A DNA stretch of 64,000 bases from NCBI GenBank assembly GCA_037721215.1, contig JBBJNV010000016.1:1-64000 (forward strand), in the 5' to 3' direction. This stretch comes from Gemmatimonadaceae bacterium. Lineage in GTDB: Bacteria; Gemmatimonadota; Gemmatimonadetes; Gemmatimonadales; Gemmatimonadaceae. Below, piece by piece: positions 4,552-32,312 of this stretch. Positions within the stretch are counted from its first letter, which is position 1. The number at the start of each line of letters is the position of its first letter. A program made the position numbers and the translations under genes. Below the pieces are notes generated by a model. The model was not told where the DNA came from. It did not search any database and saw only the letters and a program-made list of their open reading frames with translations.

Positions 4552-5102
4552 TCACTATTCCGCAGATCATCAAGGATTCGCGCACCGCGATGGACAAGTC
4601 GCTGGAAAGTTCGAGGCGCGAGCTTGGATCGATCCGGACGGGCAAGGCCAGCGTGAACCTGCTCGATACGGTACGCGTCCCTGTTTACGGGCAAAGCATG
4701 CCGCTCAATCAAGTGGCGAGCGTTTCGGCGCCAGAGCCGCGGCTTCTCACGGTGACTCCGTGGGATAAGAGCCAGTTGCAGGTCATCGAACGCGCCCTGC
4801 GCGATTGCGATCTCGGCCTCAACCCGATGAGTCAGGGCGGTACCATTCGAGTACCGCTGCCGGCACTGAATGAAGAACGCCGCCGCGATCTCGTGAAGGT
4901 CGTCCACAAGCTGGCTGAGGAAGCGCGCATCGGCATCCGGCACGCCCGGACGGAAGGGCGCGACAAGCTGAAAAAAATGGAGAAGGTGTCAGAAGACGAC
5001 ATCAAGCACGGCGAGAAGGATCTGCAGAAACTGCACGATGACTTCATCGGCCGCATCGACGAACTGCTGAAGGGGAAAGAAGCAGAAATCATGGAAGTCT
5101 GA
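4548..5102 (+). CDS. frr: Ribosome recycling factor
   Basis: RRF works with EF-G to split post-termination ribosomes. The 184-residue length is exactly that of the family. The sequence has the expected opening helix, the SIRTGKASVNLLD segment (domain I/II border), the PWDKSQLQVIERAL stretch and the long basic C-terminal helices (RRDLVKVVHKLAEEARIGIRHAR). Its ATG lies inside the last codons of pyrH (ATGA overlap), so it is probably made by re-initiating ribosomes. cdsA starts four bases after its stop. Confidence 0.98.
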   Translation: MITIPQIIKDSRTAMDKSLESSRRELGSIRTGKASVNLLDTVRVPVYGQSMPLNQVASVSAPEPRLLTVTPWDKSQLQVIERALRDCDLGLNPMSQGGTIRVPLPALNEERRRDLVKVVHKLAEEARIGIRHARTEGRDKLKKMEKVSEDDIKHGEKDLQKLHDDFIGRIDELLKGKEAEIMEV

Positions 5103-5106
5103 CAAC

Positions 5107-5961
5107 GTGTCCGAGCTCACTCGGCGCGTTCTTTTCTCGCTTGCGGGAGCTCCGCTGACAGTGGCCATCATTTACGCTGGCGGAGCTGTGCTGGCCGGGG
5201 CTCTGGCCATCCTCGCGGCATTAGGGGCCTGGGAATTCTTCCGGATGGCGCGCGAGGGCGGGTCAAATCCTCTCGAGATTGCCGGTATTGCGCTGGCTGC
5301 GTCGATTCCGCTTCTCGTGCATGCGAATTATCTGGGCGTGTATCGAGTGTCGGTCACATCCGGGGTGTTCGCGTTTCTCATCCTGCTTGCAGCGGTCATC
5401 TGGGCTCGCGGTGTCGGCGGCCGGCCACTCGTTGCGGTGTCCGTCACCGTGGCGGGTATCGTCTATCCCGCATTGCTGACATACATGTATCCGTTGCGCT
5501 ATCACGACTACGCCGTCGGAGCGGTCGCGGGCACGGTGCTGGTGATGTTCCCGATCATGGTCACGTGGGGCACTGACACGGGCGCGTACGTTTTTGGCCG
5601 GCTGTTCGGGAAGCGGAAGCTGATTCCCGCGGTGAGCCCCGGGAAAACAGTGGCAGGCGCCGTTGGAGGGCTCTTCGTGGCCATCGCTATGTGCTTCCTC
5701 TATGCCCGGTTCATGCTCGAACCTTTTGCGCAGCTCACACTGGCGCCGCTCGGTATACTGGTATTTGCAGTCGCCATCAGTGTTGCCGATCAGATCGGCG
5801 ATCTCTTTGAATCGCTGATCAAGCGCGATTCGGGGGTGAAGGACTCTTCAAGCATTTTTCCGGGGCACGGCGGCGTTCTGGATCGTTTTGACAGCCTGTT
5901 GTTTGCGCTGCCAGTTGCGCACATGCTGCTAAGCCGTCTGCTGGTACCGTCACCCGGATGA
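5107..5961 (+). CDS. cdsA: Phosphatidate cytidylyltransferase
   Basis: CdsA makes CDP-diacylglycerol from phosphatidate and CTP in the inner membrane, the branch point of phospholipid synthesis. The 284-residue protein is almost wholly membrane-spanning, with about seven or eight hydrophobic segments. The C-terminal third carries the family signature: SVADQIGDLFESLIKRDSGVKD (from about residue 225), then FPGHGGVLDRFDSL with its metal-binding aspartates. VSPGKTVAGAVGG precedes it. A GTG start at 5107 is used. It sits between frr and dxr, a common bacterial order, and overlaps dxr by four bases. Confidence 0.95.
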   Translation: MSELTRRVLFSLAGAPLTVAIIYAGGAVLAGALAILAALGAWEFFRMAREGGSNPLEIAGIALAASIPLLVHANYLGVYRVSVTSGVFAFLILLAAVIWARGVGGRPLVAVSVTVAGIVYPALLTYMYPLRYHDYAVGAVAGTVLVMFPIMVTWGTDTGAYVFGRLFGKRKLIPAVSPGKTVAGAVGGLFVAIAMCFLYARFMLEPFAQLTLAPLGILVFAVAISVADQIGDLFESLIKRDSGVKDSSSIFPGHGGVLDRFDSLLFALPVAHMLLSRLLVPSPG

Positions 5962-7085
5962 CGCCGCGCGGAGTTGCGGTACTGGGGTCGACTGGCTCGA
6001 TTGGCACAACTGCCCTGCGGGTTCTGAATCGGCACCGCGAAGCGTTTCAAGTGGTGGGATTGACGGCCCATAGCAACGCAAACCTGCTTGCGGAGCAGCA
6101 GCGCCATTTCGAACCTGCGTTTGTTGGTCTGGTGAACGACAGCGGGTCGCGGGGCGAGGGGTGGGCAGGAGGAGTTGAATGTCTTGTCGAGGCCGCAACC
6201 CGGGACGATGTTGCGATAGTCATCAACGCGATCGTGGGAACCGCTGGCCTCGACGCGACGCTGGCCGCATTGCGGGCCGGGAAGCGAGTCGCGCTGGCCA
6301 ACAAGGAAACGCTCGTCATGGCGGGCGCGCTCGCGGCCGAAGCGTGCGCCGAAGGCGGTGGCGAGATCGTGCCGGTGGACAGTGAGCACAGTGCGATTTT
6401 GCAATGCATCGGCAGCCGCCCGCGCTCAGACGTAAGGCGGGTAATACTGACTGCCTCGGGCGGACCTTTCCGCGGGTGGGACGAAGCTCAAATCCTCAAT
6501 GCACGTCTCGAGGATGCGTTGAAGCATCCCACGTGGGAAATGGGCCGCAAAATAACCATCGACAGCGCCACTCTGGCAAACAAGGCGCTCGAGGTCATCG
6601 AGGCCCACTTTCTGTTCGGACTCCCGTATGATTGCATTGACGTGGTGGTGCACCCGCAGAGCATTGTGCATTCATTTGTCGAATTCGTCGACGGCAGCGT
6701 ATTCGCGCAGATGAGCCAGCCCACCATGGAGCTACCGGTGCTTTATGCGCTCACACATCCGGAACGAGTCGCAGACGACAGTGCAATGCCGTTCGATCCT
6801 GTATCAGCGTCTCCCATCACCTTCGAGGCGGTGGCGCACGAGCGCTTTCCGGCACTCCGAATGGGGATCGATGCCGGGAAGCGTGGCGGATCGGCACCGG
6901 CGGTGTACAATGCAGCCAACGAACAAGCTGTGGCTTTTTTCCTCGAGGGCAGGATCTCGTTTGCGGATATTCCGCGTGGTATCGGGTCGGCGCTCGACAG
7001 GCTGGGACAACTTGCTGGGTCTACACGTGAGGATCTTCTCGCGGCCGACGCGGCAGCTCGAAAGCACATAATGGAGCTTTTCTGA
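5958..7085 (+). CDS. dxr: 1-deoxy-D-xylulose 5-phosphate reductoisomerase
   Basis: DXR turns 1-deoxy-D-xylulose 5-phosphate into 2-C-methyl-D-erythritol 4-phosphate with NADPH, the committed step of the MEP isoprenoid pathway. The 375-residue protein has the NADPH-binding LGSTGSIG (residues 9-16), NKETLV, the metal and substrate segment VDSEHSAI and the catalytic-loop region NKALEVIEAHFLFG, then HPQSIVHSFVEF. The ATG overlaps the cdsA stop (ATGA) and the stop overlaps the rseP ATG (TGATG). The organism therefore makes isoprenoids by the non-mevalonate route, which also supplies the undecaprenyl carrier used by MraY in this window. Confidence 0.97.
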   Translation: MTPRGVAVLGSTGSIGTTALRVLNRHREAFQVVGLTAHSNANLLAEQQRHFEPAFVGLVNDSGSRGEGWAGGVECLVEAATRDDVAIVINAIVGTAGLDATLAALRAGKRVALANKETLVMAGALAAEACAEGGGEIVPVDSEHSAILQCIGSRPRSDVRRVILTASGGPFRGWDEAQILNARLEDALKHPTWEMGRKITIDSATLANKALEVIEAHFLFGLPYDCIDVVVHPQSIVHSFVEFVDGSVFAQMSQPTMELPVLYALTHPERVADDSAMPFDPVSASPITFEAVAHERFPALRMGIDAGKRGGSAPAVYNAANEQAVAFFLEGRISFADIPRGIGSALDRLGQLAGSTREDLLAADAAARKHIMELF

Positions 7086-8254
7086 TGCTCGCTTACATTG
7101 CCCCGGTATTCGTCTTCGGGCTTGTTGTTTTCGTACACGAGCTTGGCCACTTCCTGGCGGCGAAGGCCGTCGGCGTGTACACCCCCCGATTTTCCATTGG
7201 TTTTGGGAAGACGCTGTTCAAGAAGCGGTGGGGAGAAACAGAGTACGTCATCGCGATGCTTCCGGTCGGCGGGTACGTACGAATGGCATCGAAAGAAGAT
7301 GAAGCCACCGCGTTCATCGAGGGTGGAAGCGAGAACTCGGCGACCCATGTTGCTACCCATGGCCAGCCGCTGGATCCCGAGGCCATGATTCCGTTTGGCC
7401 CCAAGCCGATCCCGGCGCACCGGTGGTTCGAGTCGAAGCCCCTCTGGGCGAGAATGGTGATCCTGCTCGCCGGTGTAACGATGAATATTCTTCTCGCCTT
7501 CGTCGTGACGACCGGAATGTTCATGCACTATGGCACCCCCTATTTGTCGACAACGGCCGATTCGGTACTTGCGGGCCGTCCTGGGGAGCGAGCAGGGCTC
7601 GTGCGTGGGGACAGCATCGTGGCCATTCAGGGCGTACCACTGAGAAAGTGGGACAAGCTCGTGGAGCGGGTTGGCGCGTCCGAAAATGTGCCACTTACGT
7701 TCGATATCATCCGGGCGGGGCAGGCTCGCAAGCTGGTCATCACGCCTGTCAGGGACACGACCCGCGATCCGGACACCGGCGCATCAGGGCGCGCAGTGCG
7801 CATCGGTATCATGCCAAGTCAGGGGTCGAAGGATCTGGGGTTTGTTCCTGCCATCGGCGCGGGATGGAATGCCACCTGGGCAATGGCGGGATCGGTCCTG
7901 GACGCATTGAAGGGATTGGCGACGCGGGAAGTTTCGGCGAGCCAGCTTGGCGGTCCGATCATGATCGCCCAGGCGTCCGTGCAGGCCGCGCAGGGAGGCG
8001 CCGAGCGGCTGCTGTTTCTCATTGCGCTGATCAGCGCGAATCTGGCTGTTTTCAATCTTCTTCCGATTCCCATTCTCGATGGCGGTCAGATCGTACTGAA
8101 CCTGCTCGAGAGCGCCAAGGGAAGCGCCTTCAGCACGCGCACGCGGGATTACATCCTGCGTGCCGGAATTGCCACCGTGCTGCTGCTTTTCGTCCTGGTG
8201 ACATACAACGACCTCAGACGGCTGGTCACGAGTGCGATGGAGCGGTTCGGCTAG
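7085..8254 (+). CDS. rseP: RIP metalloprotease RseP (site-2 protease)
   Basis: This 389-residue intramembrane zinc protease cuts transmembrane anti-sigma factors after a first periplasmic cut, releasing envelope-stress sigma factors. The active-site HELGH is at residues 18-22 in the first membrane segment. The third zinc ligand region NLLPIPILDGG is near residues 322-332. Between them lies a PDZ domain (about 155-230, with the substrate-binding RAGLVRGDSIVAIQG stretch). There is only one clear PDZ, whereas E. coli RseP has two. It follows dxr directly, the usual genomic place for this gene in many phyla. Confidence 0.95.
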   Translation: MLAYIAPVFVFGLVVFVHELGHFLAAKAVGVYTPRFSIGFGKTLFKKRWGETEYVIAMLPVGGYVRMASKEDEATAFIEGGSENSATHVATHGQPLDPEAMIPFGPKPIPAHRWFESKPLWARMVILLAGVTMNILLAFVVTTGMFMHYGTPYLSTTADSVLAGRPGERAGLVRGDSIVAIQGVPLRKWDKLVERVGASENVPLTFDIIRAGQARKLVITPVRDTTRDPDTGASGRAVRIGIMPSQGSKDLGFVPAIGAGWNATWAMAGSVLDALKGLATREVSASQLGGPIMIAQASVQAAQGGAERLLFLIALISANLAVFNLLPIPILDGGQIVLNLLESAKGSAFSTRTRDYILRAGIATVLLLFVLVTYNDLRRLVTSAMERFG

Positions 8255-13712: not shown

Positions 13713-14686
13713 GCTCCGCGGGCCGCAATGAATTCACGATCGAGACGGACGGCAACGTTCGTCTCGATCTGCTTGTGGCCCAGAAGGAAGACATTTCGCG
13801 AACGCAGGCCGCTACACTCATTGCGAATGGTTTTGTTACCGTCAATGGCGGTCACGAGAAGGCAAGCTACCGGCCAGTGGGTGGCGACATGGTAGTCATT
13901 GAACGCCAGGTCGCAGCCAGCCGGGAGATCATCGGCGAATCCATCCCGCTCGATATTGTCCATGAAGACGACGCGATTCTCGTCGTCAACAAACCCGCCG
14001 GGATGGTCGTTCATCCCGCGCCAGGCAACTGGACCGGTACGCTGGTCAATGCGCTGCTCGGGCGGGGCGGAGACCTTTCGCGCGAAGGGTCTGCCGACCG
14101 CGCAGGAATTGTGCACCGGCTCGACAAGGAGACGTCCGGGCTGCTGCTGGTCGCAAAAACCGATCGAGCGCACCGCATCCTCAGCTCGGCGATTGCCGCA
14201 AGGCGTGTGACGCGCCGGTATGCAGCAGTAATCTGGGGTCATCTCGATGAAGAGAGCATCACTATCGACAAACCGGTCGCGCGCGACCCGCGAGACCGCA
14301 AGCGTATGGCAATCGTCAGTACCGGCAGGCAGGCGAGGACGGATTTCATTCGTCTCGCCCGCTTTGGACCGGGAGACCTGTTGCGCGCGCATCTGCACAC
14401 CGGGCGAACTCACCAGATTCGTGTTCACCTGGCCTCGATCGGGCATCCCGTAATGGGTGACGATGTCTATGGCGGCGGGGGAGGAAGGCGAATCGCAGGG
14501 CTGGCGCCGAAGCGGCACTTTCTGCACGCGGCGTGGCTTGCGTTCCAGCATCCGATCACCGGCGTCCCAATGGATATCCGTTCGTCACTGCCCGACGATC
14601 TGAAACACTCACTCCGCGCAATCGGAGAGGGCGCAGCCGTTGCGGAGGCCGAGGATCCCCTCGCCGCGCTCGGCTTCTATGACTGA
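13709..14686 (+). CDS. RluA-family 23S rRNA pseudouridine synthase
   Basis: This enzyme isomerises uridines in RNA, most likely in 23S rRNA. An N-terminal S4 RNA-binding domain (residues about 18-75) precedes the catalytic domain with HRLDKETSGLLLV, whose Asp is near residue 138. GRTHQIRVH is near residue 232. The first standard start is GTG 13775, but that would cut into the S4 domain and remove its RLD motif. The open frame continues upstream to a CTG at 13709, overlapping the lspA stop as CTGA. That gives a full S4 domain and 325 residues. I therefore use CTG 13709. Function is sure, the exact start is not. RluD is the closest well-known relative. Confidence 0.85.
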   Translation: MSSAGRNEFTIETDGNVRLDLLVAQKEDISRTQAATLIANGFVTVNGGHEKASYRPVGGDMVVIERQVAASREIIGESIPLDIVHEDDAILVVNKPAGMVVHPAPGNWTGTLVNALLGRGGDLSREGSADRAGIVHRLDKETSGLLLVAKTDRAHRILSSAIAARRVTRRYAAVIWGHLDEESITIDKPVARDPRDRKRMAIVSTGRQARTDFIRLARFGPGDLLRAHLHTGRTHQIRVHLASIGHPVMGDDVYGGGGGRRIAGLAPKRHFLHAAWLAFQHPITGVPMDIRSSLPDDLKHSLRAIGEGAAVAEAEDPLAALGFYD

Positions 14687-15178
14687 CGCAGCACAAGCCT
14701 CGCGGCGCGTTCTCGTCTTCGCTGTCGCAGGCCGCACTCACTGCTGTGAACTGGAGCAGGTGCGCGAGATAGTTCCCATTCTTCCCACCACTCGTCTACC
14801 TGGTGCGCCGGCGTTCGTCCGCGGCCTTATAAATCTGCGCGGAAACCTGGTGACTGTACTGATGCAGCCATGTGTCTTTACAGCGTTCCCGCCGACAACA
14901 GCGCCGCCAGCGTGCTGCTCGTGGGGCGTAGCCCTGCATGGCCATACACTCCTTGCGCTTCCGCTGTCACTGGAAGGCGACTGGCCGATCTGATGCTGCG
15001 GCGGGAGCGCACACCAGGCGGAGCACTCGATGCTCTCGAAGAATCTGCCCTCACGGAAGTCGGCAACATCCTTGGCGGAGCTTACATGACCGCCCTCAGT
15101 GCCGACCGCATACTTGCACCGCGACTCGTGGCCCGCGCTATCGATGGTTTGTTCGCGCGCCGGCGCGCGGTGGCGTGA
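14679..15178 (+). pseudogene. Decayed cheW/cheC chemotaxis remnant
   Basis: From ATG 14679 the translation is clearly the first half of a CheW domain (VFAVAGRTHCCELEQVREIV, then GLINLRGNLVTVL). At about 14861 the similarity jumps back one frame (VLDAAMC), consistent with loss of one G. Fragments alternate between frames near 14930 and 14975. The last part (14980-15110) reads LADLMLRRE then EESALTEVGNILGGAYM, the second phosphatase motif of a CheC/FliY-type protein. So a CheW start is joined to a CheC middle, with both truncated and several frame changes. CheW couples receptors to CheA, and CheC dephosphorylates CheY. This copy cannot make either intact. Confidence 0.75.
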
Positions 15179-15814
15179 AAATCACGGGCTCAGCTGCGGT
15201 TCGCACGTTGCGCGAAGACCACCTGGGGGCATCGACCTTTCTGGAAAAGGGGTGGCATCTCATCGCTCAGGGCGATTTCCCTGGAGCAGAGGCGGCGCTT
15301 GGTGCAGCGATCGACCTCGCTCGAACCGATCAGCGAGCTCAGGCGCTCCTCGGCTGGGCCATCATGCGACAGCGCAGGTACGATGATGCACGGCAGATTC
15401 TCGAGCGCGTTCTTGCGTCGGACGCATCGAATGCCATGGTCCGCGCGCGCCTCGGTTGACTTGCGAAAAGAAATGATGCCGGAGGCCGCGGAGACGCTGC
15501 ATTTCGCCCTGCGACAGCGTAACGATCCCAGGGCAGTTCTCTACGGCAATTTCTACCTCGGCCTGCGTCACAGCGCCACAGGTGAGGTGGAGATAGCCCG
15601 TAAATTCTTCGAGACGAGCATCGAGTTGGGGCCAAGCCTGATCGAAGCCTACTACGAGCTTGGTCGTACGTGGTGGAAGGCCGGAGACGACGCGGAAGCC
15701 GACCGGGTTTGGATGTCGGGCAACTCCGCCAACCGGTTCAGTGTCTGGGGGCGGCGGTGTGCCGAGGCAATGCGGCTCGTCCGGGCTGGCGAGGAACCTC
15801 ACTGTTACAGCTGA
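15175..15814 (+). pseudogene. Frameshifted TPR protein gene
   Basis: A GTG at 15175 (overlapping the previous stop as GTGA) opens a frame encoding tetratricopeptide repeats, with STFLEKGWHLIAQGDF and then LGWAIMRQRRYDDARQIL. It ends at TGA 15457-15459. The adjacent +1 frame at once continues the same repeat protein (LRKEMMPEAAETL, then SLIEAYYELGRTWWKAGDD and the end at 15814). The two halves together give about 213 residues of a TPR protein of the kind found behind cheW genes. One indel, or a +1 recoding at the GGT TGA C site, would restore it. I favour decay because the gene in front is clearly broken. Confidence 0.7.
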
Positions 15815-15872: not shown

Positions 15873-15901
15873 TTGACACGTTTTCGGTGCGCCTCTACAC
15901 T
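15873..15901 (+). promoter_or_regulatory. Strong sigma-70-type promoter, probably leaderless
   Basis: A consensus TTGACA (15873-15878) is followed after exactly 17 bases by TACACT (15896-15901). The expected start point, 15907-15909, falls right at the ATG at 15910, so the transcript would have almost no 5' leader. It probably also reads into the tRNA gene. Confidence 0.7.
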
Positions 15902-15909
15902 ATCGCACT

Positions 15910-16113
15910 ATGGCTGATTCCAATGTGCGAACAGAGACCGCCCGTCCGAGCCCCCGTCCGAGCCCCCGTCTGCGGTCGGCCGTGCTATGGGCCGCCGCGT
16001 TGGCCGCTATCGTGCTCGGCTTTGCCGATCTGGCACGCGGCGGTACTACGATTGCCCCATTCCTCCTTGTTCTGGGGTACTGCGTGCTGGTGCCTGTTGC
16101 AATACTGAAGTAG
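15910..16113 (+). CDS. Small two-segment membrane protein
   Basis: This 67-residue protein starts with a hydrophilic, Pro/Arg-rich N-terminus (about 21 residues including a repeated RPSP). Two hydrophobic segments follow (residues about 24-40 and 47-65), separated by a short DLARGGT turn, so it should be a hairpin in the inner membrane. I recognise no family. Support for its being real comes from the near-perfect promoter, which would start transcription at the ATG, and from the membrane topology. No ribosome binding site is present, as expected for a leaderless mRNA. It lies 22 bases ahead of a tRNA gene. Confidence 0.6.
   Translation: MADSNVRTETARPSPRPSPRLRSAVLWAAALAAIVLGFADLARGGTTIAPFLLVLGYCVLVPVAILK
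15941..15971 (+). repeat. 12-base tandem repeat inside the small membrane protein gene
   Basis: CCCGTCCGAGCC occurs at 15941-15952 and again at 15953-15964, followed by a partial third copy (CCCGTCT). Being a multiple of three, it repeats a four-residue Arg-Pro-Ser-Pro unit without breaking the frame. Confidence 0.8.
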
Positions 16114-16135
16114 AGCAGGGCTCGGTTTCTGCACC

Positions 16136-16209
16136 GGGCGAGTAGCTCAGTTGGTTAGAGCGCCTGCCTTACACGCAGGATGTCGGGGGTTCGAGTCCCT
16201 CCTCGCTCA
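16136..16209 (+). tRNA. tRNA-Val (anticodon UAC)
   Basis: The sequence folds as a standard cloverleaf. The acceptor GGGCGAG pairs with CTCGCTC (one G-U pair) and the D arm is GCTC/GAGC. The anticodon stem CCTGC/GCAGG encloses the loop CTTACAC with anticodon TAC, and the T arm has TTCGAGT in its loop. The discriminator base is A and the CCA end is not encoded. It reads GUA and probably other valine codons. It is a single tRNA gene, and a T-rich stretch (TTTGTTTTT) follows. Confidence 0.96.
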
Positions 16210-16276
16210 TTTGTTTTTCGGGACCTGTTGAAATGCGATGGTGTAAGTATGTTCTCACGCTTGGGAGGCTAGGACA

Positions 16277-17986
16277 TTGAGTGCAAGGAGTCTGACTTTG
16301 GGTCATAACCGGATTTTCGTCCCTCGCGCGATTTTCGCGTTGAGTGCCCTTTCGGCGTTGCCGTTTGCCGATGCCTCCGCGCAGCGTCGGACCGCCGACC
16401 CGCCGCCGAAAATCATGATCGGCACGTTCGCGAGCGCCGATAAGGATCTCGGACAACAGACAGCGGAAGCGCTGCGCTCGCGGATCACCAGGGACGTCGA
16501 CAACAAGAAGCTGACCGTCATTCCGAAGGCCGATATCAATACGACTCTGACTGCGTCAGGGTACTCGACAACTGAAGCGCTGTCGGCCAACGATGCGAAA
16601 GCCCTCGCCAATATTCTTCGCGCCGATGAGTATATGGAAGGCACAGTCACCCGGACACCGACTGGCGTGAAGGTCGATGCCCGCATTGTTCTCGCACGGG
16701 ATAACAGCCTGCAGCAGCCATTGCCTTCGGCCGAGGCAGGCAAGGTAGACCAGGCGGCTCAGATGGTTGCGAAGAACTACGTGCAGGCCCGCGAGCAGCT
16801 CGCCGCCGAGCGCAGCTGTTATACCCTTTTCCGCGAAGGCAAGTTTGCCGCAGCCGAAGCAGCGGCGCGGTCGGGTCTGGCGAGATATCCAACTGGCACA
16901 CTCGTCGGTGTATGCCTCGGGAACGCACTTCAGGAACAGAAGAAAACCGATTCCGTTCTTGCTGTCGCCGAGCGTATCCGGGCTGTTGACCCGCGGAATG
17001 TGTCGGCTCTGCGCTGGGCCGCGGACATTTATCAGACCCGCGGTGACAGCGAGCGCGCAACGCAGGCTCTCACCGGGCTGCTCGCTGCCGACCCCGGCAA
17101 CGACCGCCTCGTCGAGCAGGTTGTAAACAGCCTCGCTGCGAGCGGCAAGGCCGCAGTTGCTGTTCCGATCATCATGGAAGCGGTAAAGCGTAATCCGGGG
17201 GATCCCAAGACGTTGCGTACAGCGTGGCTCGTGCTGCTCGCCGCCAAGGATTACAATCTTGCACTGCAAACGGGTGCCGACCTGATCAAGGCTGACACGG
17301 CCGCTGCTGACAGCAGCTATTTCATCCGCAGTGCAGCCGCTTACACCGCTCTGAATCAGTCGAGCCAGGCCGCCCAGATTCTGGGCCGGGGGATCTCCAA
17401 GTATCCGAACAATGCAACGCTGTTGCTGGTGCAGGCCAATGCACTCAGCAAGGCCGGCCAGAACGCTCAGGCGCTCGCGGCGGCGAGACGCGCTGTCACC
17501 ATCGATCAGAAAGTCGATGGGGGATATGCGCAGATGGCGCTGATCTACGGAGCCCTCAACCAGCCGGACAGCGTCCTTGCGACACTCCGGCAGGCTTCCG
17601 GCAGCGGCGGGGACAAAAGCACGCTCGCGAAGGTTGCGTTGCAGCAGGGCAACAACGCCTATAAGTCGGGCAACGCGTCGAAGAATCGTGCCGAGCTGCA
17701 GCGCGCCATCCAGTTCCTGCGCTTGTCGGACCAGCTCGAGGCGACGGCCGATGCAAAGTTTCTGCTGGGAGTTTCGGCTTTCACCATTGGGCAGAGCGCG
17801 ATAACCGAAGCTCAGTCGTCCAAGAACTGCGCGCTGGCAAGATTATCCAAGGAGTCGTTTGCGACTGCGCAGCAGAACGTTCCTGCCGGGCTCCAGACGT
17901 ACGCCGATGCGGCCAAACAGGTGCTCACCGCAATCCCGCAGTACATTCCGGCCGCTGACGAGATGGTGAAGCGCTACTGCAAGTGA
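16277..17986 (+). CDS. Secreted TPR-repeat protein with TolB-like N-terminal domain
   Basis: This 569-residue protein has an N-terminal export signal (hydrophobic to about residue 34, with a likely cut after ADASA). An alpha/beta domain follows (about 42-150) of the kind seen in TolB-N/CsgG-like regions, reading KIMIGTFASADKDLGQQTAEAL. At least eight tetratricopeptide-like helical repeats come next. The TTG start at 16277 is fixed by GGGAGG at 16263-16268, eight bases upstream. Such proteins sit in the periplasm and form scaffolds for protein contacts. I cannot name its partner. It lies between tRNA-Val and the dcw cluster and overlaps rsmH by four bases, so it may be co-expressed with division genes. 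Confidence 0.75.
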   Translation: MSARSLTLGHNRIFVPRAIFALSALSALPFADASAQRRTADPPPKIMIGTFASADKDLGQQTAEALRSRITRDVDNKKLTVIPKADINTTLTASGYSTTEALSANDAKALANILRADEYMEGTVTRTPTGVKVDARIVLARDNSLQQPLPSAEAGKVDQAAQMVAKNYVQAREQLAAERSCYTLFREGKFAAAEAAARSGLARYPTGTLVGVCLGNALQEQKKTDSVLAVAERIRAVDPRNVSALRWAADIYQTRGDSERATQALTGLLAADPGNDRLVEQVVNSLAASGKAAVAVPIIMEAVKRNPGDPKTLRTAWLVLLAAKDYNLALQTGADLIKADTAAADSSYFIRSAAAYTALNQSSQAAQILGRGISKYPNNATLLLVQANALSKAGQNAQALAAARRAVTIDQKVDGGYAQMALIYGALNQPDSVLATLRQASGSGGDKSTLAKVALQQGNNAYKSGNASKNRAELQRAIQFLRLSDQLEATADAKFLLGVSAFTIGQSAITEAQSSKNCALARLSKESFATAQQNVPAGLQTYADAAKQVLTAIPQYIPAADEMVKRYCK

Positions 17987-18927
17987 TTTCAGAGGTGCCG
18001 GGTGCGTGGGATACCAAATTCCACGCCCCGGTGCTTGTAGGGGAAGTTCAGCAATTGTTTGGGGGCGCGGGTCAGATTCTGGATTGCACCCTCGGGGGCG
18101 GCGGACACAGCGCCGCCCTTCTTGCGATGGGGGCAACCGTAACCGCGATCGATCGCGACCGAAGTGCACTGAGAATCGCTACGAATCGGCTTGCCACCCA
18201 CGCGGCGGCGGGCCGATTTCGCGTTATATTGGGCAACTTCGCCGAGGTCGACACGTTGCTCTCAGATCCACTGCAGAAGTTTGATGGCATCGTTGCCGAT
18301 CTTGGCGTCTCGTCGCATCAGATTGATGACACCAGTCGCGGATTTTCATTTCGCGAAGGTGCTTTGCTGGATATGCGCATGGACGAAGACGCTCCGTCGA
18401 GTGCCGCAGATTATCTCAACAATGCGGCAGAAGCGGAGCTTGTCGATGTTTTCCGCGAATACGGTGATGAGCCGAAGGCACGACGACTGGCTCGCGAAAT
18501 CGTTCGGCGCAGGGCTAATCGCAGTTTTGCGACCAGCGACGATCTGGTAGGCGCAATTCGGGGCACGCTTGGCCCGCGAAGCGGTGCCGGTGAGTTTGCC
18601 CGGCTTTTTCAAGCGGTAAGAATTGCAGTCAATGCCGAGATAGAGCTTCTCGAGCAGGCCCTGCCGCGATTGCGGGACCGCTTGGCGCCAGGCGGTGTGA
18701 TCGGAGTTATTTCATATCATTCGGGTGAGGACCGCGTGGTGAAGCACTCAATGCGCGAATGGTCGCGCGTTTGCGTCTGCCCGCCGCGGTTGCTGCGGTG
18801 CGAGTGCCGTGGCAGTGCCCTGGGCCAGCTTGTCTGGCGGAAAGCCGTCGTGCCTGCCGGAGTCGAGATTCAACGAAATCCGCGCGCGCGAAGCGCACGA
18901 CTCCGCGCGTGGCGAAGCGAGGTTTAG
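17983..18927 (+). CDS. rsmH: 16S rRNA (cytosine-1402-N4)-methyltransferase
   Basis: RsmH methylates N4 of C1402 in the 30S decoding centre. The 314-residue protein has the HAPVLVGEV opening and the SAM-binding DCTLGGGGHS (near residue 34), then IVADLGVSSHQID and the catalytic-region motif GFSFREGALLDMRMD. ISYHSGEDRVVK is near the end. It is the standard first gene of dcw clusters after mraZ, and no mraZ is visible here. It starts at GTG 17983 overlapping the secreted TPR gene (GTGA) and overlaps ftsL by 19 bases. Confidence 0.97.
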   Translation: MISEVPGAWDTKFHAPVLVGEVQQLFGGAGQILDCTLGGGGHSAALLAMGATVTAIDRDRSALRIATNRLATHAAAGRFRVILGNFAEVDTLLSDPLQKFDGIVADLGVSSHQIDDTSRGFSFREGALLDMRMDEDAPSSAADYLNNAAEAELVDVFREYGDEPKARRLAREIVRRRANRSFATSDDLVGAIRGTLGPRSGAGEFARLFQAVRIAVNAEIELLEQALPRLRDRLAPGGVIGVISYHSGEDRVVKHSMREWSRVCVCPPRLLRCECRGSALGQLVWRKAVVPAGVEIQRNPRARSARLRAWRSEV

Positions 18928-19217
18928 GCGCGCGGCGCTGGATGATTGCCGGCGGGCTCATGGGTTTTGTGATTGTCTCCGCTGCAGTCATCACGCGCCG
19001 CAGCTACGGATTCTCGGAAGGCAATGCTGCAAAAGCGCTCGAGAAGCGACATTCGCTGCTGGAGAGCGAACGCGTGCGGCTGGCCGGCGCCATTCGCGAC
19101 GCCTCGTCCCGTCGAACCCTGGGCCCAATCGCAGAGCGACGGCTGGGCATGCGCATTCCATCGGATACCCAGGTGATATTTCTGCCGAGTCACGCGAGGG
19201 CCGGTGGTACGCCTTAG
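18909..19217 (+). CDS. ftsL: Cell division protein FtsL
   Basis: A 102-residue single-pass membrane protein sits exactly where ftsL belongs, between rsmH and ftsI. It has a short basic cytoplasmic N-terminus, one hydrophobic segment (about residues 13-30) and a charged helical part ending LGMRIPSDTQVIFLP. That ending is typical of FtsL, whose periplasmic coiled coil pairs with FtsB. Sequence conservation in this family is low, so position and topology carry the call. GTG 18909 is chosen because it supplies the basic N-terminus, and ATG 18942 would begin inside the membrane segment. It overlaps both neighbours. Confidence 0.85.
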   Translation: MAKRGLGARRWMIAGGLMGFVIVSAAVITRRSYGFSEGNAAKALEKRHSLLESERVRLAGAIRDASSRRTLGPIAERRLGMRIPSDTQVIFLPSHARAGGTP

Positions 19218-21174
19218 CCGCGTCAGCGTCATCCATCTCACGCTTGTATTGTTCGCCCTCGCCCTGATCGGACAAGCGGCAAGAGTTCAGCTATTTCAGG
19301 GTGATCAATGGTTGGAGCGCGCACGACAGCAGCATTTCCGGGAATCGCCGTTGACTGCGGCGCGGGGGAATATCCTCGATGCGAGCGACCGGGTGCTGGC
19401 AGAAAGTCGCGAACTCGTGCGCCTTGCCGTGGCTCCGGGCGAGGTGCGCGACAGGGCTGCACTCGCTACTGCGCTCCGGGATGCCGGTTTCTCCACGGCA
19501 TGGACGTCAGCCGCGACCGACCCGCGGCGGAAATGGGTCGAGCTGCCGGGCCTTCACGTCCCGACTGACATAGCGGGACTTACGGTGCTCCCCGGAGTCC
19601 GTGGCTTTCCGGTGATGAAGCGCGAATATGCGGCTGGAGAAAGCGTCAGCCGCATCGTGGGTGGAACCGATCAGCGGGGCCGCGGTGCCGACGGGATCGA
19701 GCTAGCGCTCGACAGCCTTTTACGCGGCGACAGTGGAAAGACGACCATCGCGCGGGACAGTCGTGGCCGAAACCTCGATACTCCAGGCGGGTGGAACGGC
19801 GCTCCGACGCGAGGCCACAACGTCACTCTTACAATCAACCGGGATCTCCAGGAAATCTGCGACCGTGCGCTGACGCGCGCGACAGACAGCCTGAATGCGA
19901 CCGGTGGTGACATTGTCGTCATGAATCCATTTACCGGGGAAGTGCTCGCGATGGCGAGCCGTCGTGCTAATCGGCGCACGCTTGCGAACACCGCGGTGAG
20001 CGAGCCATTCGAGCCGGGGTCTACCCTCAAGCCATTCATCGCTGCGGCGCTCCTGGAGCGCGGCCGTGCGCGTCCGGACGAGGTCGTCGAGACATTCGGT
20101 GGCACGATGATTCTTAATGGCCGCCGGATCGTCGATGACAGGAAGTCCGCGCAGCTTTCGCTGTCGGATGTCATCAGATATTCGAGCAACGTCGGAATTG
20201 TGCGTTTCGCGAACCGGCTTACCGCGCGCGAGAAATTTGAGACTCTGCGTGATCTGGGGCTTGGTGCACCAACTGGGGTTCCGCTTCCGGCCGAGGCCGA
20301 CGGAACTCTGCGCGATCCCTCAAGATGGAACCGGACATCAGCTGCGTCGATGGTGATGGGCTATGAAGTTGCCGTCACACCGCTGCAGCTGGTTGCCGCG
20401 TACGGCGCTATTGCCAATGGTGGTGAGCTCATGGAAACACACCTGGTGAAGGAAATACGAAATGCCGGCGGCGATCTGGTGTACCGTGCCCGGCCCCGGG
20501 TCATCAGGAGAGTGATCTCCCCAGATGTGGCTACACAAGTTCAGCACATGCTGCTGGCGGTGGTGCAAGGCGGAACGGCGGTCAAAGCCGATCTTGCGAC
20601 ATACCGCATAGGAGGAAAAAGCGGCACTGCGCGCCGAACGGTGGAGGGAAAAGGCTACGTAGAGGGAAATTACACGGCGTCGTTCGTCGGTCTTTTCCCA
20701 GTGGACAAGCCGCAATACGTCGTGCTCGTCAAGCTGGACAGTCCGCGCGGTGCTTATTACGGCGGCGAGATCGCTGCGCCGCTTACTGCGGTCATACTTC
20801 GTGCGGCGCTCGCGGCGCAGGACGCTGCACTCGACCGAAACGAACTCGCGGCCGTCGAAAGACCGGCTCCCGTCGAAAGACTTGCCCCGGTGGTTCCTAA
20901 GGGAGCAGTTGTTGCTGGTGCGCCGGCAGACGAACGCATCGTCCTTCCGCCTCGCACAATCCGGCTTCCTTTCGAGCAGAAGCGAGGCGTGCCGGACCGG
21001 TCGGCAAGGCCAGTTCCGGATGTTGTGGGATTGCCGGTACGCGACGCGGTTCGTGCTTTGCATGAGGCGGGATTCAGGGTGAGGCTGGTTTCGCGACAAG
21101 GCATGCCTACCTACCCCGCCGCTGGCTCGCTGCTTGCCGGCGGCAGCGTCGTCAAACTCAAGCATATTCCCTGA
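19204..21174 (+). CDS. ftsI: Septal transpeptidase (class B PBP) with one PASTA domain
   Basis: This peptidoglycan DD-transpeptidase of 656 residues has an N-terminal anchor (about 8-25) and a dimerisation domain. The transpeptidase motifs are GSTLKPF (active serine near residue 273), SSN (near 327) and KSGTA (near 471). After an Ala/Val/Pro-rich linker, a single PASTA domain closes the protein (VPDVVGLPVRDAVRALHEAGF, from about 601). PASTA is absent from E. coli FtsI but seen in PBP2x/SpoVD-type enzymes. Position between ftsL and murE makes it the division-specific enzyme. GTG 19204 is used, overlapping ftsL. Confidence 0.94.
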   Translation: MVRLSRVSVIHLTLVLFALALIGQAARVQLFQGDQWLERARQQHFRESPLTAARGNILDASDRVLAESRELVRLAVAPGEVRDRAALATALRDAGFSTAWTSAATDPRRKWVELPGLHVPTDIAGLTVLPGVRGFPVMKREYAAGESVSRIVGGTDQRGRGADGIELALDSLLRGDSGKTTIARDSRGRNLDTPGGWNGAPTRGHNVTLTINRDLQEICDRALTRATDSLNATGGDIVVMNPFTGEVLAMASRRANRRTLANTAVSEPFEPGSTLKPFIAAALLERGRARPDEVVETFGGTMILNGRRIVDDRKSAQLSLSDVIRYSSNVGIVRFANRLTAREKFETLRDLGLGAPTGVPLPAEADGTLRDPSRWNRTSAASMVMGYEVAVTPLQLVAAYGAIANGGELMETHLVKEIRNAGGDLVYRARPRVIRRVISPDVATQVQHMLLAVVQGGTAVKADLATYRIGGKSGTARRTVEGKGYVEGNYTASFVGLFPVDKPQYVVLVKLDSPRGAYYGGEIAAPLTAVILRAALAAQDAALDRNELAAVERPAPVERLAPVVPKGAVVAGAPADERIVLPPRTIRLPFEQKRGVPDRSARPVPDVVGLPVRDAVRALHEAGFRVRLVSRQGMPTYPAAGSLLAGGSVVKLKHIP

Positions 21175-22640
21175 TGCGTTTTTCACCTGGCAGCACCGTA
21201 ACTGCCCTTGAACGCGCCGGCCTGCTTGCCGGCGTTCGCGGCGTGCTGCCAGAGTGGGTCGAGGGGATATCGGACGACAGTCGAGAAGTGACCCCTGATT
21301 CCCTGTTCATTGCGATCCGCGGTTCTGCGCGCGATGGCCATGACTACCTGGAGCGCGCGCGCGAGCTTGGAGCGTCGGCGGTAATGGTCGAGGATCCCGA
21401 TCGCACCACGCTTCCCGCCATCGTTGTGCGGGAAGGACGGAAAGCCGCGGCGGTTGCCGCTGGCCAAGCGTACGGCAACCCGTCGCGCGAGCTGCGCATC
21501 ATCGGTGTCACGGGCACAAATGGGAAAAGCACGACCGTTGGAATCCTCAGACATCTGCTGGATCAGCCGGAATCCCGCAGCGCCTCGATCGGGACGCTCG
21601 GAGTGCTGCTCGGCACCGAAGCAGAAGTCGTTCCGGGGGGTGCTGAGCTCACCACACCCGGCCCGGTAGAGCTTCAGCGAGTTCTGCGCGACCTCGTTGA
21701 CCGGGGCGCAAAGTCAGTCGCAATGGAAGTTTCGTCACACAGTCTCGACCAGCGGCGCATCGATGGATTGAGCTTCGATGCCGCGGTGTTCACCAACTTT
21801 ACGCGCGACCACCTGGACTATCATCTCACCATGGAGGCGTATCTGCAGGCGAAGGCATCGTTGCTCGAGTACCTCAAGCCGAGTGGATCGGCAGTGATCA
21901 ATGTCGATGCCCCGGCCTGGGAAGCACTTCCCGAGAGCCGTCGGAAGATATTCTTCGGCGTTGCCGAAGCTGCTGACGTGAGGGCGACAGAAGTGGTTTG
22001 TACCGAGTCGGGAAGCCGGTGGACGCTGCGGTACGCGGGCGAAGCGCATGACGTGGACCTGCCCCTGATTGGCGATGTGAATGTACACAATGCGCTTGGG
22101 GCCCTGGCGGTCGGTATCACACTCGGAATGAATCCTGGGGAGCTTGCGGGGCGCCTGTCCGTGCTGCCACAGGTACCGGGGAGACTGGAAGTCATCTCGC
22201 AACACCCGACGGTGCTCCGGGATTACGCGCATACACCGGACGCAATGCAGCGCGTACTGGCGGCGATCCGGCCTTTTACGCCGGGAAAGCTGATCCTCGT
22301 TTTCGGCTGCGGTGGCGACCGGGATCGCGGCAAGCGCCCGGAGATGGGCAGCGCCGCTCAGGCCGGCGCGAATATTGTGATCGTCACCAGCGATAATCCT
22401 CGCACGGAAGACCCCGAGCAGATACTTGACGATATCGAAAGCGGGATGTCGTCGCCTGCGCGCCTCCGTATCGAGAACCGTCGGATGGCTATTGCACGGG
22501 CGCTCGAGACCGCCGGCCAGGGTGATGTGATTCTGCTGGCAGGCAAAGGCCATGAGACGTATCAGATCATGGGAACGGTCAAAGCGCCATTCGATGAAAA
22601 GCAGGTTGTCGGCGAGCTGCTCGCCGAGCGTGCAACTTGA
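21174..22640 (+). CDS. murE: UDP-MurNAc-tripeptide synthetase
   Basis: MurE adds the third amino acid to UDP-MurNAc-Ala-Glu. The 488-residue ligase has the ATP-binding GVTGTNGKSTT (from about residue 110), the acylated-lysine region and the C-terminal DNPRTEDPEQIL (near 407). The DNPR form of this motif is the known mark of enzymes using meso-diaminopimelate rather than lysine. The wall is therefore predicted to be of the direct-linked meso-DAP type. The ATG overlaps the ftsI stop (TGATG) and the end overlaps murF by four bases. Confidence 0.97.
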   Translation: MRFSPGSTVTALERAGLLAGVRGVLPEWVEGISDDSREVTPDSLFIAIRGSARDGHDYLERARELGASAVMVEDPDRTTLPAIVVREGRKAAAVAAGQAYGNPSRELRIIGVTGTNGKSTTVGILRHLLDQPESRSASIGTLGVLLGTEAEVVPGGAELTTPGPVELQRVLRDLVDRGAKSVAMEVSSHSLDQRRIDGLSFDAAVFTNFTRDHLDYHLTMEAYLQAKASLLEYLKPSGSAVINVDAPAWEALPESRRKIFFGVAEAADVRATEVVCTESGSRWTLRYAGEAHDVDLPLIGDVNVHNALGALAVGITLGMNPGELAGRLSVLPQVPGRLEVISQHPTVLRDYAHTPDAMQRVLAAIRPFTPGKLILVFGCGGDRDRGKRPEMGSAAQAGANIVIVTSDNPRTEDPEQILDDIESGMSSPARLRIENRRMAIARALETAGQGDVILLAGKGHETYQIMGTVKAPFDEKQVVGELLAERAT

Positions 22641-23995
22641 CGTTCTGGACTTTCGATCGGGTCGCGGACGCGATCGGCCCAGCAGCCGTAACACAATCGC
22701 CGCGCGGTGCTGGCGAAATCACCGGCATCACGACGGATTCGAGATCGACGATAGAGGGTCAGCTTTTCGTCGCGCTGATCGGCGAAAACTTCGATGGCCA
22801 TGACTATCTGGGCGCGGCGGTGGAGCAGGGCGCTGCTGCGGTGCTTGTTTCCCGCCCTGTCAGGCTCGAGCAGCTCGGTGTTCCGGTGTACGAGGTCGGT
22901 GACACGCTGATGGCGCTTGGCACCCTCGCTACATACTGGCGGAAAGCGTGGGGAAAGACCGTCATCGCGGTGGCCGGAAGCAACGGGAAAACGACGACCA
23001 AGGATTTGATTCGGGCGGCGCTGGCTGTCGAGCTCGAGGTTCACGCAACAACCGGGAACCTCAATAACCGCATCGGAGTACCGCTCACGCTGCTGGCTAT
23101 TCCTGCATCGGCAGAAATAGCCGTCATTGAGGTCGGCACCAATCTGCCCGGCGAAGTCGCAATCCTTCGCGACATCGCATTGCCGGATATTGCGGTGGTT
23201 ACGTCGATCGGGGAGGAGCATCTCGAAGGTCTTGGTGACGTGGCGGGAGTTCTCAAAGAGGAAGTGGCGGTGTTTCATGGTGTGAATGTCGGCGTGGCTC
23301 CCGCGTCGCAACCCGAGATTGCGACGGCTGCGCGCGGAATGACGACGTCATTCGTCGAAGCCGGACTGGACGCCGGCAATATCAGACCGTCCGCGTGGAA
23401 ACTCGCGGCTGATGGAAGCGGTACAATCGAGCTGGATGACGTGGTAGTCGCGCCTCCGCTCCGCGGCCTCCACAATCTTCAGAACACCATGCTTGCGATA
23501 GCCGTCGCGCGAATCTGCGGGGTCACCGATGCAGGAGCGGGTTCGGGCATTGCGTCAATGCAGGTTCCGCGCATGCGCGTTTCGTCCGAGCAACTCGGTC
23601 GTGCGACTCTGATCAACGATGCGTACAATGCCAATCCGGGGTCGACGCGAGCTGCGCTCGAGTTGCTTCGCGGCATGGGTTCAGAGCGCCAGCGGGTCGT
23701 CGTTCTGGGAACCATGCGGGAACTGGGTGCAGCTTCGGCTCGATGTCACGATGACATCAGCCGGCTCGCACTCGACGGGCCCGCCGATGTCGTTGCGGGT
23801 ATCGGAGAGTTCAGACACGCGCTCGCTCGAATCGCACCCGGCGACGTCCGTGTGGTGACGGCAGCATCGGTCGACGAGCTCTGGCCGCAGCTTGAGTCCC
23901 GTATTCAGCCGGATGCCGTTATCCTGTTGAAAGCATCGCGGGGCGTGCAACTGGAGCAACTCGTTCCGCATCTCACAACCTGGGCAATGCATTAG
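22637..23995 (+). CDS. murF: UDP-MurNAc-pentapeptide synthetase (D-Ala-D-Ala adding)
   Basis: MurF attaches D-Ala-D-Ala to the UDP-MurNAc-tripeptide. This 452-residue Mur ligase has the N-terminal uridine-binding region (ITTDSRS, LFVALIGENFDGHDYL), the P-loop GSNGKTTTKDL (near residue 114) and the ligase signature NDAYNANPGSTRAALE. The start is TTG 22637, overlapping the murE stop as TTGA. The substrate D-Ala-D-Ala needs a Ddl ligase, and no ddl gene is in this window, although alr is present 20 kb downstream. The stop overlaps the mraY GTG by one base. Confidence 0.97.
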   Translation: MTFWTFDRVADAIGPAAVTQSPRGAGEITGITTDSRSTIEGQLFVALIGENFDGHDYLGAAVEQGAAAVLVSRPVRLEQLGVPVYEVGDTLMALGTLATYWRKAWGKTVIAVAGSNGKTTTKDLIRAALAVELEVHATTGNLNNRIGVPLTLLAIPASAEIAVIEVGTNLPGEVAILRDIALPDIAVVTSIGEEHLEGLGDVAGVLKEEVAVFHGVNVGVAPASQPEIATAARGMTTSFVEAGLDAGNIRPSAWKLAADGSGTIELDDVVVAPPLRGLHNLQNTMLAIAVARICGVTDAGAGSGIASMQVPRMRVSSEQLGRATLINDAYNANPGSTRAALELLRGMGSERQRVVVLGTMRELGAASARCHDDISRLALDGPADVVAGIGEFRHALARIAPGDVRVVTAASVDELWPQLESRIQPDAVILLKASRGVQLEQLVPHLTTWAMH

Positions 23996-25137
23996 TGCTG
24001 AACTATCTCCTCGTACCTTTCTCGCGGGATCTCGGATTTCTTCGAGTGTTCAACTACATCTCGTTCCGGGCTGCGGGGGCGGCGGTAACGGCGTTGATCG
24101 TTTCATTCATTATCGGACCGATAATAATCCGCCGACTGCGCCGGATGAAACTCCACCAGGTGATTCGTGAAGGTACACCCGACAGCCACCAGGAAAAGAG
24201 AACCACGCCAACGATGGGTGGGCTCATCATCCTCGCATCGACCCTGGTGCCGACAGTCATGTGGGCGAAGCTGGACAATCAGTACGTTCTGATTGCGATG
24301 TTCGTCATGCTGTGGATGGGGTTTATCGGGTTTTTCGACGATTACCTCAAGCTGAAACAGAAGCAGGCAGGCCAGAAGAACACCGGTCTGGTTGAGGCGT
24401 ACAAGCTCATTGGTCAGGTCTCGATCGGCTTTGCACTCGGGTACTATCTATGGAAATTCCCACTGTCGACGTTGCCGGGCGCGTCGACGACGCTGCCGTT
24501 CTACAAGTACATCCTGATCGTCCCGGCCTCCGCAACGCTGGCCTGGCTTTACGTGCTGTTTGTGACATTTGTGCTGACAGGGACAAGTAATGCGGTCAAT
24601 ATCACCGACGGCCTCGATGGGCTCGCCGCTGGCCTGACGGCAATTGCGGTGCTGACTCTCGCACTGTTCGCGTACGTAATCGGCAGGATCGATGCGTCCG
24701 CCTATCTCCAGGTATTTTATCTTCGTGGGGCCGGCGAGCTGACCGTTTTCTGCGCCGCCATCATGGGTGCGTGTATCGGGTTTCTCTGGTATAACGCACA
24801 CCCGGCGCAGGTGTTCATGGGTGACACCGGATCGCTTGCGCTCGGCGGCGCGCTAGGCGCGATCGCGATACTGCTCAAATCGGAATTCGTGCTGCTGCTG
24901 GTTGGCGGCGTCTTCGTGGCGGAGATGGTCTCCGTCATCATCCAGCGCGTCGTATTCAAATTCCACAGGCGGCGCAAAGGTCTCGAGTACGCGCAGGCGC
25001 ACCGGGTTTTCCGGACGGCGCCGCTGCATCACCACTTCGAGGAAGGCGGCTGGAACGAGGCTCAAGTGGTCGTACGTTTCTGGATCCTCGGAATCTTCTG
25101 CGCATTTGTAGCGTTGAGCACTCTCAAACTGAGATGA
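23995..25137 (+). CDS. mraY: Phospho-MurNAc-pentapeptide translocase
   Basis: MraY moves phospho-MurNAc-pentapeptide onto undecaprenyl phosphate, giving lipid I in the inner membrane. The 380-residue protein has about ten membrane segments. The family catalytic motifs are GFFDDYLKLKQK (two aspartates), NAVNITDGLDGLAAG, FMGDTGSLALGG and the late HHHFE. It starts at GTG 23995 (TAGTG overlap with murF) and overlaps murD. It is the first membrane step of lipid II synthesis, and MurG, encoded 2.5 kb downstream, does the next. Confidence 0.97.
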   Translation: MLNYLLVPFSRDLGFLRVFNYISFRAAGAAVTALIVSFIIGPIIIRRLRRMKLHQVIREGTPDSHQEKRTTPTMGGLIILASTLVPTVMWAKLDNQYVLIAMFVMLWMGFIGFFDDYLKLKQKQAGQKNTGLVEAYKLIGQVSIGFALGYYLWKFPLSTLPGASTTLPFYKYILIVPASATLAWLYVLFVTFVLTGTSNAVNITDGLDGLAAGLTAIAVLTLALFAYVIGRIDASAYLQVFYLRGAGELTVFCAAIMGACIGFLWYNAHPAQVFMGDTGSLALGGALGAIAILLKSEFVLLLVGGVFVAEMVSVIIQRVVFKFHRRRKGLEYAQAHRVFRTAPLHHHFEEGGWNEAQVVVRFWILGIFCAFVALSTLKLR

Positions 25138-26501
25138 TGGCGCCAGCGCTTCCACACGGCGAAATCGCCGTGTTGGGACTTGCTCGAAGCGGGACCGCGG
25201 TTGCAAAGCTGCTGCTGAGTGGCGGACACCAGGTTTACGCTTCTGATGGTGGACGGTCGGCTGCCGTCGTCGAAAGTGCCGATTCATTGCGTGCAATGGG
25301 CGGCCACGTAGACGTTGGTGCACACAACCTCGAGCGGATTGGGCGCGCGGCGTTGGTAGTGGTGAGCCCCGGCATCGACCCAGGGGCTCCGCCCGTGGCG
25401 GCGGCGCGACAGGCAGGAGTGCCGGTGTTGAGCGAGGTCGATATTGCCCTCCGCTTCATGCCGCGTTCGCGCGTTATCGCCGTCACCGGTACCAACGGCA
25501 AGACCACCACGACCGCTTTGATCGGACATTTGCTGCGCGGCGCTGGCGCAAGCGCTGTCGATGCCGGAAATATCGGCACGCCGCTCTCCGAAATCGCGAT
25601 TCTTGCTTCGCATCCAGACTGGATCGCGCTCGAGATGTCATCGTTTCAGCTGCATGATACTCCCAGTCTGAATCCGACCGTGGGCGTGCTGACGAACCTC
25701 GCACCCGACCACCTCGATCGATATCCCACAGCGTCTGACTACTACGCAGACAAGGCGCGCCTCTTCGCCAATGCGAACTCTGCATCGCGATGGGTTGTGA
25801 ACGCCGACGATGGCCGGGTTGCTTCCATGGCCGAAGGCGTCACTGGGACGCATTATCGTTTCTCCACTGAACACCGTGGTGATGGATGGATGGACGATGA
25901 CGGCGTGCTCCAGGTGCTGGGAGAGCGGCTGGTCGCGCGCAGCGACTTCAACCTTCTGGGGACACACAACGTGGCAAATGCGCTCGCCGCGGCGCTGGCA
26001 GTGTCGGTCGCTGATGAAGCCTTTCGCGACAGCGCCGCGAGGCTGGCGATGGAAGCTTCTCTGCGCTCGTTCAATGCCCTCGCGCACCGTCTCGAGGTTG
26101 TTGGAGAGATCAACGGTGTACAGTGGATCAATGACTCCAAGGCCACCAACGTGAGCTCTACGCTGGTCGCGATCGAGGGCATGCGGCGGCCGACAATTCT
26201 TCTGCTTGGCGGCCGGCACAAGGGCGAGCCATACAGCCGCCTTGCCGCCGCCATCGGACGAAGCGTCAAGACAGTCATCGCATACGGTGAAGCTGCGGAA
26301 AAAGTCGAGGAGGATCTGAGCGCGACCGTTACCATCGAACGGATGGATGCAGACTTCGAGGCGGTTATAGAGCGCGCCCGCGCGCTTGCGCAGCCTGGCG
26401 ACGCAGTCCTGATGTCACCCGCCTGCTCGAGTTTCGACATGTTCCGGAATTACGAAGAGCGGGGAACGCGTTTCAGGCAGCTTGTTCTGGATAAAGCATG
26501 A
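25134..26501 (+). CDS. murD: UDP-MurNAc-L-Ala:D-glutamate ligase
   Basis: MurD adds D-glutamate to UDP-MurNAc-L-Ala in the cytoplasm. The 455-residue protein has an N-terminal nucleotide-binding domain (AVLGLARSGTAVAKLL), the P-loop TGTNGKTTTTALI (near residue 118), and the Mur ligase pieces EMSSFQL and WINDSKATN. The C-terminal segment LLLGGRHKGEPY completes the fold. ATGA overlaps link it to mraY in front and ftsW behind. Its place between mraY and ftsW is the common dcw order. Confidence 0.97.
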   Translation: MMAPALPHGEIAVLGLARSGTAVAKLLLSGGHQVYASDGGRSAAVVESADSLRAMGGHVDVGAHNLERIGRAALVVVSPGIDPGAPPVAAARQAGVPVLSEVDIALRFMPRSRVIAVTGTNGKTTTTALIGHLLRGAGASAVDAGNIGTPLSEIAILASHPDWIALEMSSFQLHDTPSLNPTVGVLTNLAPDHLDRYPTASDYYADKARLFANANSASRWVVNADDGRVASMAEGVTGTHYRFSTEHRGDGWMDDDGVLQVLGERLVARSDFNLLGTHNVANALAAALAVSVADEAFRDSAARLAMEASLRSFNALAHRLEVVGEINGVQWINDSKATNVSSTLVAIEGMRRPTILLLGGRHKGEPYSRLAAAIGRSVKTVIAYGEAAEKVEEDLSATVTIERMDADFEAVIERARALAQPGDAVLMSPACSSFDMFRNYEERGTRFRQLVLDKA

Positions 26502-27679: not shown

Positions 27680-27680
27680 A

Positions 27681-32281: not shown

Positions 32282-32312
32282 CGACGGCGAACCTTTGGTA
32301 GGCATGTGTTTA

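Follow-up and report, generated by a model that had tools for sequence, protein, structure and literature searches.

The window analysed here, a stretch of 64,000 nucleotides from a Gemmatimonadaceae genome (contig JBBJNV010000016.1 of assembly GCA_037721215.1), carries on its forward strand a promoter-like sequence, a short open reading frame (ORF) and a tRNA-Val(UAC) gene in close succession, with the following features.

15873..15878, + strand: -35 element TTGACA, of which TTGAC is invariant in aligned orthologous loci, the spacer behind it being variable
15896..15901, + strand: -10 element TACACT (TAnnnT), behind a 17-nt spacer (15879-15895)
15910..15910, + strand: predicted transcription start, placed at the A of the start codon or as much as 2-3 nt ahead of it, judged from the -10-to-start distance and from pyrimidines at -1 and -2 followed by A
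15910..16113, + strand: microprotein ORF of 67 amino acids with two transmembrane (TM) segments, supported by phylum-wide homologues and by dN/dS
15943..15966, + strand: RPSPRPSP, a 12-nt local tandem duplication in the N-terminal tail, not conserved
15976..16026, + strand: TM segment 1, residues 23-39, from hydropathy
16057..16107, + strand: TM segment 2, residues 50-66, from hydropathy, lying within a conserved A-P-x-L-L-V-x-G-Y-C-x-x-x-P motif
16114..16135, + strand: gap of 22 nt separating the stop codon from the tRNA, in which no separate promoter would fit, with the expected RNase P site at 16135/16136
16136..16209, + strand: tRNA-Val(UAC), to which other matches in the source genome are at most 84% identical
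16210..16219, + strand: T-rich stretch TTTGTTTTTC directly after the tRNA, a possible end of the transcription unit

The ORF is a real gene under purifying selection, as judged from its distribution and substitution pattern. Homologues were recovered by protein search in 59 of 61 relatives and in all 45 good-quality genomes, and by profile search in 288 of the 298 genomes that represented the phylum, usually as a single copy; they extend to deep families of the class and to a second class. Pairwise dN/dS among close relatives is about 0.02-0.28 and nucleotide substitutions fall mainly at third codon positions. A chance ORF is ruled out by this phylum-wide conservation together with dN/dS, and a little-studied phylum gains a membrane protein that is almost universal there yet has no name.

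The two membrane segments described in an earlier reading of the sequence alone (hereafter the sequence-only reading) are borne out by hydropathy, with Kyte-Doolittle means of 2.2 for residues 23-39 and 2.5 for residues 50-66. Invariant or near-invariant positions (window numbering) are G37, L41, G44, A49, L52, L53, G56, Y57, C58 and P62, and the N-terminal tail is variable in length and usually basic in the homologues. The basic tail and the short loop suggest a hairpin with both termini inside (N-in/C-in). The repeated RPSP noted at the N-terminus is present (ARPSPRPSPRL) but results from the 12-nt duplication and is absent from the aligned relatives; it occurs only in the source genome among those aligned, which rules it out as a functional motif. 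At locus L063 we observed a second standalone hairpin-like frame (around 2400-2615, + strand) near an ECF sigma-like factor gene.

The promoter sequence TTGACA-N17-TACACT lies ahead of the ATG at 15873-15901, exactly as had been claimed, and 8 nt (ATCGCACT) separate the -10 element from the start codon at 15910. The promoter is the top-scoring site (10/12) in a promoter scan of 16 kb, but the scan returned three promoter-like sites against 3.9 ± 2.1 in shuffled sequence, and the single-locus match alone is within chance expectation. What lifts the promoter far above chance is the conservation of its geometry: TTGACN-N16..18-TAnnnT-N5..11-start is found in 55 of 59 order-level loci, for which shuffling predicts 0.0004 per locus. 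When these loci are aligned on the start codon, TTGAC and TAnnnT are fixed and the spacer drifts. In many of them the TGA within TTGACN shuts the upstream frame. The same geometry recurs in most of the deeper families within the class Gemmatimonadetes, including loci without a tRNA in the 1.5 kb fetched, of which L111, L113, L119 and L128 have TTGAC and L117 and L121 have TTGATC. The promoter is thus retained where ORF and tRNA are unlinked, and it therefore serves the ORF.

Leaderless translation of the ORF at 15910-16113 is well supported because the promoter ends 5-11 nt before the start codon and Shine-Dalgarno (SD) motifs are rare. An SD-like motif was seen in only 3 of the 59 order-level loci, with 8% expected by shuffling, and in the window an SD sequence is absent and the -10 TANNNT lies 8 nt from the start codon, inside the limit of about 12 nt that characterizes leaderless genes. 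Where 8 or 9 nt separate the -10 element from the ATG, the order-level loci mostly have pyrimidines at -1 and -2, which would fit transcription starting on the A of the AUG. The core of the sequence-only reading, a translated, leaderless microprotein immediately before tRNA-Val, is accordingly supported from four sides: phylum-wide conservation, purifying selection, a promoter retained in loci without the tRNA, and the scarcity of SD motifs.

The position of the ORF upstream of tRNA-Val is likewise confirmed, the tRNA-Val(TAC) gene starting 22 nt past the stop codon, and the same small ORF, sought in related genomes, precedes tRNA-Val(TAC) by 3-187 nt in 56 of the 59 order-level loci. The three exceptions are L017, which meets a contig end, L032 (G023), where the promoter is lost and the tRNA lies 1.3 kb away, and L028, in which the ORF reads on. 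In L028 the frame continues into tRNA-Val-like sequence (C-terminus ERLPYTQDVGGSSPSSPT), probably through an assembly deletion that fused ORF and tRNA. The sequence-only reading had named a tRNA-Val locus with a broken frame as the observation that would speak against it. Among the ORF-lacking genomes examined, no tRNA-Val(TAC) was preceded by a disrupted frame; the tRNA was missing from the assembly or was located 17 nt short of a contig end, or the genome belonged to an unlinked family.

Mixed mRNA-tRNA operons are known from Escherichia coli, as in tufB and secG-leuU. The window shows the arrangement expected of such an operon, with both genes on the same strand, a gap of 22 nt and no intervening promoter or terminator, and the ORF mRNA and tRNA-Val are probably transcribed together and then separated by RNase P. 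The promoter scan of the window found no further promoter-like site from the ORF start to the tRNA; a promoter within the ORF might conceivably serve the tRNA alone. Like the E. coli examples, the predicted transcript would join protein-coding and tRNA sequences that are separated by processing. It differs from them in that the microprotein ORF makes up the entire 5' leader, in that the linkage persists across phyla, and in that the ORF stop codon lies inside the tRNA in some lineages.

We favour the interpretation, with a probability of about 0.82, that the locus is a dicistronic unit in which a leaderless mRNA for a two-TM microprotein and tRNA-Val(UAC) are carried on one RNA. Transcription of this RNA from a sigma-70-type promoter would begin at the first base of the ATG or no more than about 3 nt away, and the leaderless message would yield the 67-residue N-in/C-in membrane hairpin. 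The same RNA would run on into tRNA-Val(UAC), so that the tRNA precursor would have the mini-mRNA as its 5' leader. Cleavage by RNase P at 16135/16136 would then free the tRNA, and the ORF, already complete ahead of the cut, would keep a tail of 22 nt. The microprotein itself would be an ancient housekeeping membrane protein of the FCB superphylum, divergent from but related to the DUF3098 hairpins. A lone promoter observation has in this way grown into a conserved, testable system.

The pairing of a protein-coding mini-mRNA with a tRNA precursor has persisted in several phyla. A scan of a genome collection found homologues in Zixibacteria, Calditrichota, KSB1, Eisenbacteria, Krumholzibacteria, Fermentibacteria, WOR-3, TA06 and Glassbacteria; tRNA-Val is the next gene in 28 of the 55 loci inspected in these other phyla, frequently with tRNA-Asp behind it, even though the genes upstream are not the same. 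The loci there are mostly leadered. In nine loci from several phyla (L173, L196, L205, L211, L214, L218, L227, L130 and L136) the ORF and tRNA-Val share 10 nt, with the codons for the last residues of the protein in tRNA nucleotides 1-7 and the UAG stop codon formed by U8-A9-G10. Full translation and RNase P cleavage are thus mutually exclusive on one molecule, and a cut by RNase P at these loci would leave a stop-less mRNA. Because the stop codon coincides with tRNA nucleotides 8-10, such loci lend themselves to a direct test of whether RNase P and the ribosome compete.

These overlaps invite the view that the ORF is mainly a translated cis-acting leader that tunes the output of tRNA-Val, with ribosomes and RNase P contending for the same RNA and the contest being sharpest where the stop codon sits within the tRNA. 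Both the U8-A9-G10 stop in the nine loci and the retention of the linkage across phyla despite changing upstream genes are in its favour. We nevertheless consider it unlikely, given that both helices are conserved in amino acid sequence, which a leader would not need, that ORF and tRNA are unlinked in several families, and that the ORF of the window stops 22 nt short of the tRNA. A broader version of the dicistronic unit is more speculative than the unit itself and, in our view, doubtful: the tRNA-Val precursor and the microprotein may form a superphylum-wide pair on one RNA whose outputs are coupled by the alternative of RNase P cleavage or complete translation (the U8-A9-G10 stop of several phyla), with a mini-mRNA that turned leaderless in the class Gemmatimonadetes.

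The ORF might also be translated from a leadered message, arising from an upstream start or from read-through of the TPR gene, in which case the match to a promoter would be secondary. SD-like motifs are present in 26 of 42 outgroup loci, homologue loci in the outgroup phyla are mostly leadered, and the ORF appears to have a leader in the second class sampled (f11). Within the order, by contrast, the -35 and -10 positions are invariant relative to the start codon, SD motifs are nearly absent and the TGA inside the -35 box often closes the upstream frame, and for the window gene we regard a leader as improbable. Since the f11 class and the outgroups are mostly leadered, the leaderless state of the microprotein gene seems to be characteristic of the class Gemmatimonadetes, and it offers a natural example of a single gene for which leaderless initiation has become fixed class-wide.

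Leaderless genes as such are, from the promoter patterns in their sequences, a general trait of the Gemmatimonadota genomes examined. A strict leaderless pattern has 15 matches in the source genome and none in the reversed control, and 335 matches over 25 genomes compared with 38 in the reversed control; when the promoter-to-ATG distance is set to 11-35 nt, the count in the source genome drops to the control level. The source-genome genes with the pattern include dnaA, MarR- and ArsR-like regulators and antitoxin-like genes (named by eye). About ten other genes of this genome (L094-L108), dnaA among them, have the arrangement TTGAC-N17/18-TAnnnT-N5-10-ATG. Leaderless genes with a -10 TANNNT adjacent to the ORF have been described in Deinococcus-Thermus and Actinobacteria (PMC3160421, PMC12340547), and the window gene resembles them in having this element no farther than about 12 nt from the start codon and no SD sequence. 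It differs in its full, invariant TTGAC -35 box and in keeping the arrangement for one orthologous gene throughout a class. A word search of the main texts of these two papers found neither Gemmatimonadota nor Gemmatimonadetes, and our literature search on leaderless genes in Gemmatimonadota returned nothing direct.

The claim that the protein belongs to no known family holds for the window protein itself, which passes no Pfam or NCBIfam cut-off, but not for all of its relatives. The window protein scores 9.1 bits (E 1.2) against DUF3098 (PF11297), for which the gathering score is 25 bits, and three bridging homologues exceed that cut-off (26.1, 25.7 and 25.2 bits). Weak DUF3098 matches were obtained for 15 of 18 homologues in one set and, at E<=0.1, for 19 of 21 in another. 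DUF3098 comprises small two-TM proteins of unknown function that resemble the homologues in length, hairpin, an F-G-x-x-N-Y motif at the start of helix 1, and S/T-x-A-P and G-Y/F motifs in helix 2; the window protein shares the two-TM hairpin of about 60-90 amino acids and the A-P and G-Y/F of helix 2. As the homologues converge on DUF3098, we place the window protein on a divergent branch within a DUF3098-like superfamily and do not count it as a curated member. In Bacteroidota, DUF3098 genes usually stand between ftsX and uppP (ftsX - DUF3098 - uppP). The tRNA-Val association and the leaderless promoter do not form part of the DUF3098 description, and a literature search on DUF3098 found a single incidental mention. 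A sequence search of solved structures gave an unrelated best match (E 0.089).

Some genomes of the window's family carry a second copy of the hairpin as the N-terminus of TMEM260-like (PF11028) proteins, in four loci.

L060, 1066-3522, - strand: hairpin-TMEM260-like fusion
L061, 785-3025, - strand: hairpin-TMEM260-like fusion
L062, about 4700-7141, + strand: hairpin-TMEM260-like fusion
L064, 2305-4812, + strand: hairpin-TMEM260-like fusion

In these proteins the PF11028 domain begins at residues 92-131 and only the N-terminal hairpin is shared with the microprotein, which lacks the GT-C core domain and does not belong to the TMEM260-like family. The fused copies, along with the near universality of TMEM260-like proteins in the order, could mean that polyprenyl-linked glycosyltransferases use the hairpin as an accessory module. 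We think this quite unlikely and reject it as the main reading: the fusion was seen only in some members of one family, the TMEM260-like proteins of the source genome have no hairpin, and the standalone gene is not adjacent to TMEM260-like genes.

That the promoter belongs to tRNA-Val and the ORF is an incidental transcribed spacer can be dismissed as hardly credible, for although a housekeeping tRNA lies about 230 nt downstream of the promoter and is kept directly downstream in most loci, the protein is under purifying selection, the ORF is present in nearly every good genome, no broken-frame locus was found, and families with ORF and tRNA unlinked keep the promoter at an equal distance from the ATG.

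For the microprotein of the preferred dicistronic unit we offer only a tentative guess at function, namely a small, constitutively made accessory of the envelope-synthesis or division machinery. The guess draws on analogy with other two-TM division and morphology proteins, on sub-threshold profile matches and on gene position, the microprotein gene lying 1.9 kb upstream of the dcw cluster. SCO2097/DUF3040 and CrgA are small membrane proteins of the actinobacterial envelope and division machinery (PMC4255298, PMC4416010). The window protein reaches 16.5 bits against DUF3040 (curated score 24.7 bits); the SCO2097 family is matched by 12 of 21 homologues (best 2.4e-4) and CrgA, at E of about 0.04-0.1 and below its curated score, by 2 of 21, the window protein not among them. 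The likeness lies in small size, membrane location and weak profile similarity, but the window protein stays below the curated cut-offs and both phylum and gene context differ, making this an analogy only. Proximity to dcw genes was seen in the window only, the upstream genes being different in other phyla.

The dcw cluster itself spans 17983-33780 (rsmH, ftsI, murE, murF, mraY, murD, ftsW, murG, murC, ftsQ, ftsA and ftsZ, named by eye) and follows the tRNA and a TPR-rich protein. Upstream of the promoter, at 14640-15814, CheW-like, CheC-like and TPR-like genes are split over different frames, a picture that frameshifting, gene decay or sequencing errors would give.
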